Shown here piece by piece: positions 1 through 16,275 of a stretch of DNA of 32,798 nt. Origin of the DNA: Candidatus Hydrogenedentota bacterium (GTDB lineage Bacteria; Hydrogenedentota; Hydrogenedentia; Hydrogenedentales; JAGMZX01); NCBI GenBank assembly GCA_018005585.1, contig JAGMZX010000031.1, forward strand, positions 13,606 to 46,403, in the 5' to 3' direction. Each line of letters opens with the position of its first letter. The first letter of the stretch is position 1. The position numbers and the translations under genes were made by a program. The notes below the pieces were generated by a model. The model was not told the origin of the DNA, did not search any database, and was given only the letters and a program-made list of their open reading frames with translations.

Positions 1-126
1 GGTGAAGGAGAGGGTGAAGGAGAGGGTGAAGGAGAGGGTGAAGGAGAGGGTGAAGGAGAGGGTGAAGGAGAGGGTGAAGGAGAGGGTGAAGGAGAGGGTG
101 AAGGAGAGGGTGAAGGAGAGGGTGAA
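1..126 (+). repeat. Perfect 12-bp tandem repeat coding for Gly-Glu
   Basis: Ten back-to-back identical copies of ggtgaaggagag fill bases 1-120, with a partial eleventh (ggtgaa) to 126. Each unit encodes G-E-G-E in the frame of the downstream protein. The array touches the window edge, so its full length is unknown. Units of 12 bp change protein length but not frame. Long identical copies suggest recent slippage or unequal exchange and are a common place for assemblies to break. Confidence 0.97.
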
Positions 127-1137
127 GCTGTCGAACCGATCGATTGTGCGAATGCGACAGTCAAGGACAATCTGGGCGACGCCTCCGGCACCTCAATTGA
201 GATCGGGTATCTGGACCCCGCCGTCGGAGGCAGCGGCGGGTCATTGACGTTCACGTTTGACGTTCCTGAAGCCGTGGACCGGATTGTGATTCTGGGCAGT
301 GACGGCTACTTTGGCCTGGTTGCCGACCCGGGCACTTCCGCCACTCTGAATGTCAGCACGGCCGCCGACGGCTCACCCGGCGCAACGGCCGACGCCGTGA
401 CTTACACCGTGACCTACGAGATTGAGTCGCCGCAGGGGTCGGGCCAGTACGTAGCGGGCGATGACTGTGTCCTTGTCACGACGTGGGCGCCGCCGTCATG
501 CGAGGTCAATTTTGACCCGGCGACGCCTGTGCCCGGCGCAGCCGCGGAGATTAGCGTCGTGCTGCGGAACGCGCACTACGACGGCGTGAACGGCCGGTTT
601 GGGGTGCTGACGTCTGACGCGGCGGGCTGGACGGCCGACGTGCAGCTTGCCGCTGGAGCGCCGGGCCTCACGACCAGCGCAAATGCCGTGCAATACGACC
701 CGGCGTTCACGTGGCCAAGCTGGAACGCGCCGCAGCACGAGGGGTTGTACCAGGTGGCTGTCCCAGGCCCCGGCACGGACAATGCGAGCGAGTGCGCCAG
801 GCGGGCCGGCGAGACCCCGACGGGCATCCACACGTCCGACCGGAACGAAAACCACCGCATCGATCTCACGGAACTGCTGCGCGTGATTCAGTTTTACAAT
901 TCGGGCGGATTTCAGTGCGCGGCAGAGCCGGGCAGCACGGAAGACGGGTACGTGCCCGGTGCGGGCGGCAACCAGGGTTGCTCGCCGCATGACAGCGACT
1001 ACAATCCGGGCGGACCGGACTGGGATGTAGACATCGTAGAATTACTTCGGATAATACAATTCTACAACAGTGGTGGATACCATTATTGCCCGGGCGACGG
1101 CACGGAAGACGACTACTGCCCGGGGCTTGTGAATTAG
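1..1137 (+). CDS. Secreted protein with GEGE linker and two dockerin-like hands (5' partial)
   Basis: The reading frame is open from base 1 and its start lies outside the window; 378 residues are visible. It begins with a Gly-Glu tandem linker (about residues 1-42). A beta-rich region follows, resembling extracellular Ig/cohesin-type domains ('SLTFTFDVPEAVDRIVI' and later 'CEVNFDPATPVPGAAAEISV'). The C-terminus carries two EF-hand/dockerin-like units. The first, from about residue 280, reads DRNENHRIDLTELLRVIQFY. The second is DWDVDIVELLRIIQFYNSGG. Each ends in NSGG-[FY] followed by cysteine. D/N-rich loops followed by an amphipathic helix are the usual Ca2+-binding dockerin layout, so the tail may bind calcium or a partner on the cell surface; that role is inferred. 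A clear terminator follows the stop codon. An internal ATG at 244 is not needed because the frame continues upstream of it. Confidence 0.8.
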   Translation, partial: GEGEGEGEGEGEGEGEGEGEGEGEGEGEGEGEGEGEGEGEGEAVEPIDCANATVKDNLGDASGTSIEIGYLDPAVGGSGGSLTFTFDVPEAVDRIVILGSDGYFGLVADPGTSATLNVSTAADGSPGATADAVTYTVTYEIESPQGSGQYVAGDDCVLVTTWAPPSCEVNFDPATPVPGAAAEISVVLRNAHYDGVNGRFGVLTSDAAGWTADVQLAAGAPGLTTSANAVQYDPAFTWPSWNAPQHEGLYQVAVPGPGTDNASECARRAGETPTGIHTSDRNENHRIDLTELLRVIQFYNSGGFQCAAEPGSTEDGYVPGAGGNQGCSPHDSDYNPGGPDWDVDIVELLRIIQFYNSGGYHYCPGDGTEDDYCPGLVN

Positions 1138-12298: not shown

Positions 12299-12474
12299 GA
12301 TGCTCTGAAGGCGTGACTCCAGGGCGCAGGGGAGCGGTTTTCGCCGTTGGAGGGCAGTACGCCGCTTCTTTCGTATGTTACAATAACGGCGTAACCGTGT
12401 GGTGCTTTCGCTGTTTCTCTCACATGTGACGCGGCCATGTCCCCCCCGGCCGTCTCACGAAGGAAGAGGTGTCC

Positions 12475-15400
12475 ATGCTTCGTTCCGCTGCCTGTTGCTC
12501 CGTCTGCGTGGCGCTGTTTCCCTTTCTGACGCACATGGCGGCCGCGGACGCCTTCCTGCTTGAACTCGAAACCCCGCCCGCGGCGGCGGCGCATGCGCAG
12601 GGCATGGAGGCGGGCGGAACGTTCGCAAAGGCTGCCAGCGCCGTGAAGGCGAGGCTGGCGGTTATCGATGTGGAGCAGCAGCGGGTCCTGAGCGCTTTGG
12701 CGGCGAAGAGTCCCGGCGCGCGCGTCTTGTACCGGGTGCAGCGTGTCTATAACGGCATCGCCGTAAGCGCCGACCCGGCTTCCGTCGAGGCGCTGCGGGC
12801 GTTGCCGGGGGTGCGTGCCGTCCACAGGCTGCGCCGCATTCACGTGCAGCACACGACGAGCATGCCGTTTCTCGACGTGCCGGCAGTGTGGGACGGCGCG
12901 GGAATGGCCTTGACCGGCACGGGCGTACGGGTCGGCGTTATCGACACGGGCATTGACTACCTGCACCCGGATTTCGGCGGCAGCGGCGCGGCGCAGGACC
13001 ACGCGAACAACAACACGCGCGTGATCACGGACGGATTCTTCCCCACCGCGAAAGTAGCGGGCGGCTTTGACTTTGTGGGCGACGACTATGACCCCGATGA
13101 CCCGGTCCTCTCCGTTCCAAGGCCGGACCCGGACCCCATGGACCAGCACGGCCATGGCACGCATGTGTCGGGCACCGTCGCGGGTTTCGGTGTGGACACG
13201 CAGGGCAAGACCTATGTGGGCGGTTACAATCCCGATGTGCCGATGGCGACTCTTCAGATCGGTCCTGGCGCGGCCCCAAACGCAACGCTTTACGCGCTAA
13301 AAGTCTTCGGTGAAACCGGAGCTTCGCAAGTGCTGATACCCGCCATCGAATGGGCCGTTGATCCCGATGGCGATGGCGATTTTGCCGACCACTTGGACGT
13401 GATCAATCTTTCTCTCGGCGACGACTACGCGCCGCACGATGCGCCCGAGGCGGCCGCATGCGACAATGCGGCGCTGGCCGGCGTCGTTGTGGTCGCTTCC
13501 GCGGGCAACGACGGGGATATCTATTTCGCGACCGGCGCGCCGGGCTGCGCGCCCCGCGTCATCAGCGTCGCGGCATCCGAGGACGACGACCCCACGGAGA
13601 CGGACCTGTCCCCCGACCGGCTGGCTTCCTTTTCTTCGCGCGGCCCGTCGCAGGGAGCCGCGGGCCTGATTGTGAAGCCGGACGTAGCCGCGCCGGGCAA
13701 GCGCATCCGGTCGGCCCGCCTGTTCAACCCTTCCGACCCGGACAGCCTTACCTCGGTGCTCAGCGGCACCTCGATGGCCGCCCCGCATGTTGCGGGCGTG
13801 ATGGCGCTCTTGCGCGAATTGCACCCGGACTGGACCGCGGCGGAATTGAAGGCCCTGATCATGAACACGGCCATCAACAACGTGTATCGCTACGACGCGG
13901 ACGTCAACCCCACGCGCGAAGCGCCGGCACATGCGGGCGCGGGCCGCATCGACCCTGTCAGCGCGGCAACGAACGGGGTGATCGCGTATGACCTCGAGCA
14001 TCCCGAGCGCGTCAGCCTCACATTCGAAACGCGTGAAGCGGCGGCCATGGTAGTCGAGCGGCGTCATGTGCGCGTGGAGAACAAGGGCGCGATCGCGGCG
14101 TCATACGATGTGGCGCTGGATGTGCTGACCTATCTGCCTGGCCTCAGCATATTCGTCTCGCCGCAAGAAACCGGCCAGATCGCGCCGGGGGCGTATGCAG
14201 ATATCGAGGTGGGATTTCAGGCGGACTACACACGCATGAAGCACCCGCGCGACCCCGCGGCGCGCGAATTGCTCAATGAACACACACGGCACTGGATCAG
14301 CGAATTGTCGGGTTACGTAACGTTTACGCCGGATTCGCCGGACCTCGTGCCTCTGCGGACGCCTTTCTACGCCACTATGCGGCGCGCGTCGGACATGCGC
14401 ACGGCGGCGGGCGGACTCCGTTTCGAGGAGACGACGGACGCGAATATCCAGCTCACGGGCGCCGGCATCAATACGGGCGAAGACTATCCTGTGGACGTCG
14501 TGTCGCTGGTAACGCCCTTTGAACTCCTGACGTTCGACGAAGACGAGGCGGATATTTCAGGTTTGGATGACGCCGGGGACATCAAGTATGCCGGCGTTAC
14601 GAGCGATTATGTGGCGGGCAAGACCGTGGCCGATACGATGCTGTATTTCGGCATCGCGACGTGGTCGCCCTGGTACTCGCTCAACTGGATCCGCTTCGAG
14701 ATTAGCATCGATGTAAACCAGGACAACGCCGCGGATTACCTGTTGTACAGCTCGTCGAACGTTTTTCCGGCGAACACCCCCCTCGATTCCGACGTGTTCG
14801 TGTCCCGGCTCAGCAATTTCGCCGGCCAGGACGAAGTGGAGGGTTACATCAACGGCTACTCGGCTCAGCGCTACGATTCGGCGCTGTTCCTGTCCGACGT
14901 GTTGTGCCTGCCCGTCTCCGCGGGGTCGCTCGGATTGACCGATGCGCACGCCGCCTTCGGTTTCCGCGTGCGCTCCGTGGTCCGTTACGACGAAGAGAAG
15001 GTGATGGACACATGCGCGTCCGCCTCGTACGATGTGACCCGGCCCGGCCTCGCGTTCACGGTCGCGGACGACGGACAACCCACCCATTTCGATCTGAACG
15101 GGCGTAGCATCGGCGTGATATACGACGCGGAGGCGTTCGCTGCGCGCGGCGCGCTGGGCGCATTGCTGCTGCATCATCACAACATCGCGGGGAAACGCGC
15201 TGTTTGGATGCCCATCCTTACCGCGGGCGACAGTGACGGCGACCAGATCCCCGACTTGACCGAAGACGGACAGGATGCCGACGGCGACGGCTTGCCCAAT
15301 GCGTTCGACACCGACGCCGACGGCGACGGCATCACGGACGCCATCGAGGGCACGAATGACCCGGACGAGGACACGGTTCCGAATTTCCTCGACCTGGACT

Positions 15401-16275
15401 CGGACAACGACGGGCTTGCCGATACCTTCGAATGGGAACAACCGCGCACGGACCCCTACTCCCCTGACAGTGACGGCGACGGCATAGACGACAAGACGGA
15501 AGGCCGCACCGATTGGGACGGCGACGGCGTCATTAATGCGTTGGATACGGATTCCGACGACGACGGCATTCCGGACATCCTGGAGGGCGCGGGGGACTCG
15601 GACAACGACGGCGATGCGAACTACTTGGACCTCGACTCCGACGGCGACGGCATTCCCGACGCGGAGGAAACCGTGCTGGACGCGGACGGCGACGGCCTTC
15701 CGAACTACGTGGATACCGATTCTGATGATGACACGCTGCCCGACGCGGACGAGCTATCTCTTTATCTGACGGACCCCTACATGCGCGATTCGGATGAAGA
15801 CGGGCGCACCGATGATGTGGAAGTCGGCGCGGGCTCGGATCCGAACGTGCCGCAACCGCCCCCGCCAGCGGCTAATCTGGCCGCTTCGGATGGGACCTCG
15901 GTGCAGCACGTGCTGGTTACGTGGAGCGACGTGCCGGGGCGCACGGAATACCGCGTCCACCGCGGAACGGACGCCAATCTTGCGGGCAGCGCGCCTGTCA
16001 GCGGCTGGATTACGGAAACGCAATTTGAGGACACGACCGCGGCGGTGGCCACAATGTCCGGCGGCGGCGCGTGCAGCGAGGCGACGCCCCAGTACACGCG
16101 CTACACCTATTGGGTGCTCACGCGCAACGCAGGCGGCGAAGGCGGCTACAGCGCGCCCGACGAAGGCTACCGGGGCGCCGCGGCCAGGTTCGCGGATGCG
16201 CTCGTATTTGGTGTGGTCGGCGCGGCGTTTCTTGGCCTGCGCAGGGGAAAGAGACAAGAACGCCGGAACGGCTGA
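12475..16275 (+). CDS. Large secreted subtilisin-like (S8) protease with TSP3 repeats and C-terminal anchor
   Basis: 1266 residues from ATG 12475; a GTG two codons earlier is less well spaced from AGGAAGAGG. Order: signal peptide (about 1-25); inhibitor-I9-like prodomain (about 45-125); S8 catalytic domain with D157 (VIDTGIDYLHPDF), H227 (GHGTHVSG), N345 (ASAGNDG) and S433 (SGTSMAAPH), all intact; beta-sandwich regions (about 510-900); thrombospondin-type-3 calcium repeats (about 919-1125); a fibronectin-III-like domain (about 1130-1230); and a C-terminal hydrophobic segment plus basic tail (ADALVFGVVGAAFLGLRRGK). The tail resembles CTERM-type sorting signals (transmembrane helix, then Arg/Lys cluster), though I cannot name the class. 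It is likely an active, calcium-stabilised surface or secreted protease for protein degradation. It stands alone between pckG and a convergent TPR gene. Confidence 0.93.
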   Translation: MLRSAACCSVCVALFPFLTHMAAADAFLLELETPPAAAAHAQGMEAGGTFAKAASAVKARLAVIDVEQQRVLSALAAKSPGARVLYRVQRVYNGIAVSADPASVEALRALPGVRAVHRLRRIHVQHTTSMPFLDVPAVWDGAGMALTGTGVRVGVIDTGIDYLHPDFGGSGAAQDHANNNTRVITDGFFPTAKVAGGFDFVGDDYDPDDPVLSVPRPDPDPMDQHGHGTHVSGTVAGFGVDTQGKTYVGGYNPDVPMATLQIGPGAAPNATLYALKVFGETGASQVLIPAIEWAVDPDGDGDFADHLDVINLSLGDDYAPHDAPEAAACDNAALAGVVVVASAGNDGDIYFATGAPGCAPRVISVAASEDDDPTETDLSPDRLASFSSRGPSQGAAGLIVKPDVAAPGKRIRSARLFNPSDPDSLTSVLSGTSMAAPHVAGVMALLRELHPDWTAAELKALIMNTAINNVYRYDADVNPTREAPAHAGAGRIDPVSAATNGVIAYDLEHPERVSLTFETREAAAMVVERRHVRVENKGAIAASYDVALDVLTYLPGLSIFVSPQETGQIAPGAYADIEVGFQADYTRMKHPRDPAARELLNEHTRHWISELSGYVTFTPDSPDLVPLRTPFYATMRRASDMRTAAGGLRFEETTDANIQLTGAGINTGEDYPVDVVSLVTPFELLTFDEDEADISGLDDAGDIKYAGVTSDYVAGKTVADTMLYFGIATWSPWYSLNWIRFEISIDVNQDNAADYLLYSSSNVFPANTPLDSDVFVSRLSNFAGQDEVEGYINGYSAQRYDSALFLSDVLCLPVSAGSLGLTDAHAAFGFRVRSVVRYDEEKVMDTCASASYDVTRPGLAFTVADDGQPTHFDLNGRSIGVIYDAEAFAARGALGALLLHHHNIAGKRAVWMPILTAGDSDGDQIPDLTEDGQDADGDGLPNAFDTDADGDGITDAIEGTNDPDEDTVPNFLDLDSDNDGLADTFEWEQPRTDPYSPDSDGDGIDDKTEGRTDWDGDGVINALDTDSDDDGIPDILEGAGDSDNDGDANYLDLDSDGDGIPDAEETVLDADGDGLPNYVDTDSDDDTLPDADELSLYLTDPYMRDSDEDGRTDDVEVGAGSDPNVPQPPPPAANLAASDGTSVQHVLVTWSDVPGRTEYRVHRGTDANLAGSAPVSGWITETQFEDTTAAVATMSGGGACSEATPQYTRYTYWVLTRNAGGEGGYSAPDEGYRGAAARFADALVFGVVGAAFLGLRRGKRQERRNG
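15229..15852 (+). repeat. Thrombospondin-type-3 calcium-binding repeat tract (coding)
   Basis: About 208 codons in which D-x-D-x-D-G-x-x-D units recur (for example DSDGDQIPD, DADGDGLPN, DSDDDGIPD). They alternate with N-[FY]-L/V-D-x-D spacer units. The pattern is that of TSP3 repeats, which bind many Ca2+ ions and form a rigid stalk. At DNA level the tract is rich in gacggcgac-type words, so it is prone to recombination and misassembly. Confidence 0.92.

Follow-up and report, generated by a model that had tools for sequence, protein, structure and literature searches.

A dockerin-like double-hand domain as a putative docking tag on secreted proteins of Hydrogenedentota

Introduction

What is the duplicated domain that ends the first open reading frame of this stretch of Hydrogenedentota DNA, how many other proteins carry it and what might hold on to it? 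The whole stretch that was analysed, 32,798 nucleotides of one contig, is called the window here. An original prediction had read the tail as a dockerin-like double hand, possibly a sorting or docking tag of many secreted proteins in the lineage, and had named a cohesin-like or sortase-like gene as a partner that might co-occur with it. C-terminal tags carried by dozens of secreted proteins per genome are well known from the PEP-CTERM/exosortase, sortase LPXTG and T9SS CTD systems. Our search of largely open-access literature showed no account of the tag described below. Genomes, contigs, loci and families are referred to by our handles (G, C, L and f), and all window positions are on the forward strand.

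Results

The open reading frame spans positions 1-1137, with an open 5' end and a stop codon at 1135-1137. It consists of a GEGE linker containing 21 GE dipeptides (1-126), a passenger region of 234 aa for which Pfam gave no match (127-828) and, at the extreme C-terminus, a 102-residue dockerin-like double F-hand domain (829-1134), hereafter the tag. An assembly gap of 100 N (C31:13506-13605) lies immediately 5' of the window and cuts the linker on that side, so the reading frame represents the C-terminal part of a gene that extends beyond it. A relative of the same genus encodes the whole protein in one reading frame of 1,496 aa (L139), which shares 57% identity with the middle domain of the window protein (127-828) and, in its N-terminal part, 75% identity over 1,021 aa with the reading frame beyond the gap. 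L139 has a signal-peptide-like start, followed by BNR repeats, a galactose-binding-like domain, GEGE linkers, a beta-rich domain and the tag. Because Pfam finds the BNR repeats and the galactose-binding-like domain in L139, we read the window reading frame, by homology, as most likely the C-terminal end of a secreted BNR-repeat protein.

Two side observations concern the window itself. The Pfam family TrAA12 (PF22807) has a match below its cut-off in the GEGE linker, at residues 35-76 of the reading frame, and this match may mislead the automatic annotation of such proteins. Judged by eye, the product of positions 12469-16275 is a large, secreted protein of subtilase type with an extended D-rich (thrombospondin-3-like) repeat run; at its C-terminus a hydrophobic segment and the basic residues after it (ALVFGVVGAAFLGLRRGKRQERRNG) resemble a CTERM-type membrane tail.

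The tag is built of two near-duplicate units, HTSDRNENHRIDLTELLRVIQFYNSGGFQC and HDSDYNPGGPDWDVDIVELLRIIQFYNSGGYHYC, each of which runs from a Ca2+-type loop through an ELLR(V/I)IQFYN helix to a short hairpin, and both have the ending originally predicted, NSGG-aromatic and then a cysteine. The loop of unit 1 (838-873) has the canonical 12 residues (D1, N3, N5, I8, E12); it leads into the helix with ELLRVIQFYN (865-900), which displays a polar E-R-Q-N stripe, and the hairpin then runs from F-x-C, with its cysteine at 916-918, to the TEDGYVPG segment (910-957). Unit 2 has an expanded loop of 15 residues that includes a tryptophan (997-1041), the helix with ELLRIIQFYN (1033-1068) and a hairpin from GGYHYC to the TEDDYC segment (1078-1122). 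An AlphaFold2 model of the tag from 45 sequences (pLDDT 80.6, pTM 0.72) places helices at model residues 28-39 and 84-95 and strands at 43-45 and 56-58 and at 99-101 and 111-113, and each unit is therefore a predicted loop-helix-hairpin.

Among 164 copies with two readable hands, the first loop has D at position 1 in 161, N, D or S at position 3 in 155, D, N or S at position 5 in 163 and I or V at position 8 in 163, followed by E at position 12; by this residue pattern it is a canonical EF loop. The second loop has D, N or S at the matching fifth position in all 164 and W at the next in 162, and its first Asp sits one to three residues further out than that of loop 1. Its length varies from the 15 residues of the window copy to 13 in many relatives. 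Hence, of the two Ca-loops first described, one is the canonical 12-residue EF loop, and the description of the other has to be amended to a longer loop with a nearly invariant Trp. In 173 complete copies, a set partly preselected by the helix motif, D57 is conserved in 100%, W65 and E71 in 99%, the helix residues R18, Q21, R74 and Q77 in 98-100%, with R at 99% and Q at 98% in unit 1 and both near 100% in unit 2, N24 and N80 in 94-95% and the cysteines Cys30 and Cys51 in 98%; the same four R and Q residues are also invariant in profile A1. The ten-residue helices of unit 1 and unit 2 are on average 88% identical within the same copy (166 copies), compared to 84% when the units are shuffled among copies.

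Searches of family catalogues with the tag matched no family in Pfam (E <= 1) or NCBIfam, gave nothing significant among PDB sequences (best E 0.21, with profile A2) and nothing at E <= 0.001 in a viral fold library. Dockerin_1 (PF00404) left the tag unmatched, and none of the six Dockerin_1 places in the same genome falls among its 78 tag places. Comparing the tag with 20 dockerins of the phylum, HHalign returned probabilities of 27% and 16% over 19 and 21 columns. Foldseek returned no match at E <= 0.001 (E 2 and above), and dockerins recur among the 42 entries listed. VIA-align, which re-aligned Foldseek's best 90 only, retained 14 entries, 12 of them dockerins by title; the other two, 4fl4_J and 3kcp_A, are scaffoldin entries that we take to contain a dockerin. 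The best entry, 2ozn_B, aligned over 54 residues (Z 4.3, rmsd 2.5), a weak structural likeness. The duplicated Ca2+-type loop and helix (F-hand) units by which dockerins are recognised are found in the tag, as judged from the 164 copies and the AlphaFold2 helices, with Ca2+ binding itself a prediction. Since the sequence and structural evidence is weak, we describe the tag as working like a dockerin without classing it as one.

A search of the window's own genome with the tail found 78 places, 63 of them with E below 1e-20 and some of them two pieces of one protein; this number of places in a single genome excludes a chance resemblance. Together with the model, they bear out the near-duplicate loop-helix units and the double hand. 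With regard to position, 61 of 77 copies end no more than 35 residues before the stop, 13 end farther from it and 3 are truncated where a contig or stretch ends. Nine copies stand, by our reading, directly behind a signal peptide (C85, C19, C73:13846, C139, C203, C130, C41, C63 and C49), with a GEGE run following the N-terminal tag in four of them (C85, C19, C203 and C130); one of these four, C130, lacks a Met start and fails our signal-peptide rule. Such copies disfavour a C-terminal sorting signal that is cleaved off. Of the 65 copies with at least 30 aa upstream, 37 are preceded by a GEGE run whose end lies no more than 25 aa before the tag, and a signal-peptide-like segment was recognised, by a simple hydropathy rule that is heuristic, in 32 of the 35 carriers with a complete N-terminus.

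The carriers are diverse. Forty-one of them in this genome match 54 Pfam families at E <= 1e-5, some of which overlap, including Ig-like, P-domain, LRR, Kelch, beta-helix, Peptidase_C25 (2 of 41), PKD and CBM96. The most frequent family, TrAA12 (nine members), is however an artefact of the GEGE linker, and the Kelch and LRR entries overlap mutually. A tail restricted to a single protein family is thus refuted, and the many architectures and the wide use on secreted proteins that had been foreseen are visible in the counts, docking being the putative purpose. Grouping the passengers by single linkage told us little, as the repeat domains they have in common linked 114 of 145 carriers into a chain. 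In the pool of 177 distinct carriers from all loci gathered, preselected by the helix motif, the tag is C-terminal in 160, N-terminal in 9, internal in 5 and undecided in 3. As a side observation, many tag genes of the window's genome are found at the ends of contigs, where the GEGE-coding repeat has probably interrupted the assembly, and tag counts in draft genomes may therefore be misjudged.

Across the phylum, profile A1 (E <= 1e-4) detected the tag in 41 of 68 Hydrogenedentota genomes, in a survey that scored at most 75 places per genome; a separate search counted 77 places in G000, 110 in G001, 123 in G021, 95 in G015 and 37 in G009. Eleven genomes have at least 10 copies: G000 and G001 (f1), G021, G015 and G009 (f9), G025, G006, G019 and G013 (f6), G050 (f11) and G007 (f7). 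All 17 genomes of f10 and the other six of f11 have between one and six copies, and nine genomes hold a single match. Family f4 has the tag in 2 of its 25 genomes (G051 and G060), and G039 gave one weak match in another search. Among the best matches listed by a contig search, all titles naming a phylum read Hydrogenedentota or Hydrogenedentes, the others being uncultured bacterium, and no match was found in plasmids and phages.

Two of the carriers that we read recur in the low-copy genomes. One is a trypsin-like secreted protease whose complete copies have about 850 aa (L225, L226, L227, L230, L231 and L242), which bears the sole tag match of G027 and of G035 and may be the founding carrier of the tag; the other is a small protein of about 260-400 aa that combines a cohesin-like domain with the tag. 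A diverged internal tag ahead of a C-terminal membrane helix was found in four proteins of f3, f4 and G016. These four (L238, L239, L240 and L241) also share an IPEPG/IPQPG start behind the signal peptide. Beside the protease-tag gene of four f10 genomes (G043, G038, G027 and G035; L226, L227, L230 and L231) we noticed an adjoining gene for a secreted protein of about 460-500 aa and, in three of the four, an RpoN-like gene nearby, with nothing in common at that place in the other stretches.

Searches for known sorting machineries gave the following picture. Sortase (PF04203) matched in 1 of 68 genomes; this one, G061, lacks the tag in our survey, and no sortase-like partner gene was found. Exosortase (PF09721) was unmatched in 7 of the 11 tag-rich genomes (G000, G001, the four f6 genomes and G050, which is just 60% complete), strong in G007, G009 and G015 and, in G021, partial and weak yet over the cut-off. 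SprA_N (PF14349) exceeded its cut-off in 0 of 68 genomes, a weak test given that 14 control genomes were likewise without a match, and produced one stop-riddled match below threshold in G019.

The suggested cohesin-like gene fared better, in that cohesin genes do co-occur with the tag, their pairing with it being a candidate one. They were found in 33 of 40 relatives using Pfam and in 55 of 68 genomes using profile A5, which matched 33 of the 41 tag genomes and left eight without a match. In three of those eight (G022, G038 and G047) the tag is joined to a cohesin-like domain that has diverged, and so it is in G043, judging by likeness to G038. Small cohesin proteins ending in the tag occur in f1, f6, f9, f10 and f11 (12 rows). 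Single-cohesin proteins of about 335-460 aa that terminate in a membrane helix are present in many genomes, tagged and untagged, and are common in the tag-less genomes of f4; the 23 fetched rows of these anchored proteins form one branch (support 100/97) and include none from f6, f7 or f9. Gene clusters combining dockerins and cohesins contain two dockerin proteins in G000:C133, G001:C33, G013:C26 and G006:C62, with one seen in G021:C113, and two or three cohesin proteins were gathered from each, one of them ending in the tag. Three of the clusters (L245 in G000:C133, L252 in G001:C33 and L324 in G013:C26) have three single-cohesin proteins, one ending in the tag and two in a membrane-helix-like segment.

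In a cohesin tree of 89 rows and 131 columns, in which 40 of 86 forks are open and the bootstrap had not settled, the tag-ending cohesins fall into more than one group; four label changes are required, at least three of them forced. A cohesin-tag pair from the window's own genus stands beside cohesins of G040 and G041, one of which has a terminal membrane helix (support 82/77). The pattern hints, weakly, that tag and membrane anchor can substitute for each other on cohesins, and hence at an anchoring role for the tag. Across genomes the number of tags does not track the number of cohesins.

Classical dockerins offered a further comparison. G065 has 20 of them and no tag, and one cohesin of a similar cluster there ends in a classical dockerin. 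A swap of tag for dockerin in the same slot was considered and is weakened, as this dockerin-cohesin groups with other, mostly membrane-anchored cohesins; because it falls outside the tag-cohesin branches, G065 does not provide a clean same-gene swap. Likewise, tags are missing from the seven genomes with at least 10 dockerins, and none of the 11 tag-rich genomes has more than 8 dockerins, but mutual exclusion is not evidenced by this alone, because the empty overlap has, by our arithmetic, a chance near 0.27 and all seven genomes belong to f4. These seven (G018, G033, G039, G063, G064, G065 and G067) each have between 10 and 63 classical dockerins, with no tag reaching the survey threshold, and some of the seven encode proteins with several cohesin stretches (L338, L340, L257 and L258). 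A dockerin-based system may run in family f4.

Discussion

We favour, as fairly probable, the reading of the tag as a module, probably stabilised by calcium, that docks or anchors its carrier non-covalently in the manner of a dockerin. In this reading it probably keeps dozens of secreted proteins, otherwise unrelated, attached to the cell surface or to one another via a receptor. Ca2+ would fill the canonical loop 1 and probably the expanded loop 2, folding both units, whose twin E-R-Q-N helix stripes would form a recognition surface of near two-fold symmetry. A shared surface receptor would bind this stripe without covalent processing, and Kelch, LRR, beta-helix, Ig-like, BNR and protease passengers would thus be held at the surface or in an extracellular assembly. 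Linkers ahead of dockerins provide reach, and the flexible, acidic GEGE linker would do the same here. As receptor, the candidates most open to testing are the single-cohesin proteins encoded in the same genomes, several of them with a membrane helix at the end. In favour of docking stand the many copies on unrelated secreted proteins, the two predicted loop-helix units with dockerins among their structural neighbours, the conserved helix stripe, the cohesin-tag proteins beside membrane-anchored cohesins and the missing sortase and, in 7 of 11 tag-rich genomes, exosortase. Against it count the weak structural likeness, the lack of a Dockerin_1 match and the low HHalign probabilities, tag and cohesin numbers that do not move together, the eight tag genomes unmatched by A5, the nine single-match genomes, in which a shared tag makes less sense, and the strong exosortase of three tag-rich genomes (G007, G009 and G015).

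The likeness to type I dockerins (PF00404) lies in two duplicated loop-helix units with near two-fold symmetry, placed mostly at the C-terminus behind flexible linkers on many secreted proteins, and in a predicted fold that is nearest to dockerins among the Foldseek candidates. One canonical and one atypical, longer loop are also combined in the group 1 dockerins of R. flavefaciens, where, as reported in PMC5429695, the second Ca2+ site is coordinated by n, n+6 and n+12. In contrast to type I dockerins, the tag is larger (about 100 residues versus 57 model positions in PF00404), adds after each helix a hairpin with TEDGYxPG and conserved cysteines, has its own helix signature, ELLRVIQFYN, shows no Dockerin_1 match and has in cohesin only a candidate partner; at loop position 12 it has E where the phylum's own dockerins have D. 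On balance we see, by resemblance, a domain outside Pfam and NCBIfam that would be a variant of dockerin-like docking tags.

If the tag docks, its receptor might be a cohesin, the tag then being a diverged type of dockerin and the single-cohesin proteins a small scaffold akin to the anchoring scaffoldins and monovalent adaptors of cellulosomes; we regard this as possible, albeit short of probable. A small protein combining cohesin and dockerin is the 'monovalent adaptor' layout of PMC11557425, and the cohesin-tag and membrane-anchored cohesin proteins match the monovalent adaptor and anchoring scaffoldin layouts given there, except that the tag stands in the dockerin's place. A cohesin receptor would also fit the fusions of cohesin to tag in five families, the scatter of tag-ending cohesins among the others with the own-genus pair beside those of G040 and G041, the clusters of dockerin proteins with two to four cohesin proteins, many having a C-terminal hydrophobic helix, the G065 cluster cohesin that terminates in a classical dockerin and the fold itself. 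However, the classical dockerins of the same clusters may be the true cohesin partners, anchored cohesins occur in tag-less f4 genomes too, the G065 protein lies outside the tag-cohesin branches and tag and cohesin counts do not move together; A5 also leaves 8 of 41 tag genomes unmatched, though four of these (G022, G038, G047 and G043) have a cohesin-like fusion with the tag. A docking tag with its own, non-cohesin receptor would amount to a second dockerin-type display system, separately evolved or diverged beyond recognition, in which a Ca2+-dependent double hand is the main surface holder in several Hydrogenedentota families and replaces the classical dockerins or exosortase tags of relatives; this we hold to be doubtful.

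Readings without docking appear weaker. The conserved cysteines and loop residues and the one or few copies in many genomes would suit a structural or adhesive Ca2+ module that serves self-association, matrix building or stability and has no dedicated receptor, but the R, Q and N of the helix, which are not loop ligands, are conserved as strongly as the ligands (in the partly preselected set). Their conservation across unrelated passengers indicates a common partner, self-association through the stripe being compatible with it as well, and we consider a purely structural module unlikely. Less likely still is a C-terminal secretion or sorting signal that, like the T9SS CTD, is read by an outer-membrane machine. 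The extreme C-terminal position of 61 of 77 copies, the up to more than 100 copies per genome and the Peptidase_C25 carriers would agree with it, and PEP-CTERM, LPXTG and T9SS CTD tags are indeed similar in standing at the C-terminus of dozens of secreted proteins per genome. Unlike these, the tag is also found N-terminally, in nine copies of one genome by our reading, so that the strictly C-terminal placement of a T9SS CTD does not apply, and diverged copies are found internally ahead of a membrane helix; in contrast to PEP-CTERM and LPXTG, it is a predicted loop-helix domain, whose window copy has neither a membrane helix nor an LPXTG-like motif. The near-absence of sortase (1 of 68), the unmatched exosortase in f1 and f6 and, as a weak test, the lack of SprA_N above cut-off also argue against a sorting signal.

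The tag would matter in several ways. A single domain accounts for how about 19 to 123 proteins end in each tag-rich genome of this uncultured phylum and predicts one shared receptor, and annotators gain a family to name. If the tag docks, it would form part of a new Ca2+-dependent affinity pair, and these Hydrogenedentota would apply a cellulosome-like display logic to proteases, adhesin-like proteins and BNR-type proteins.
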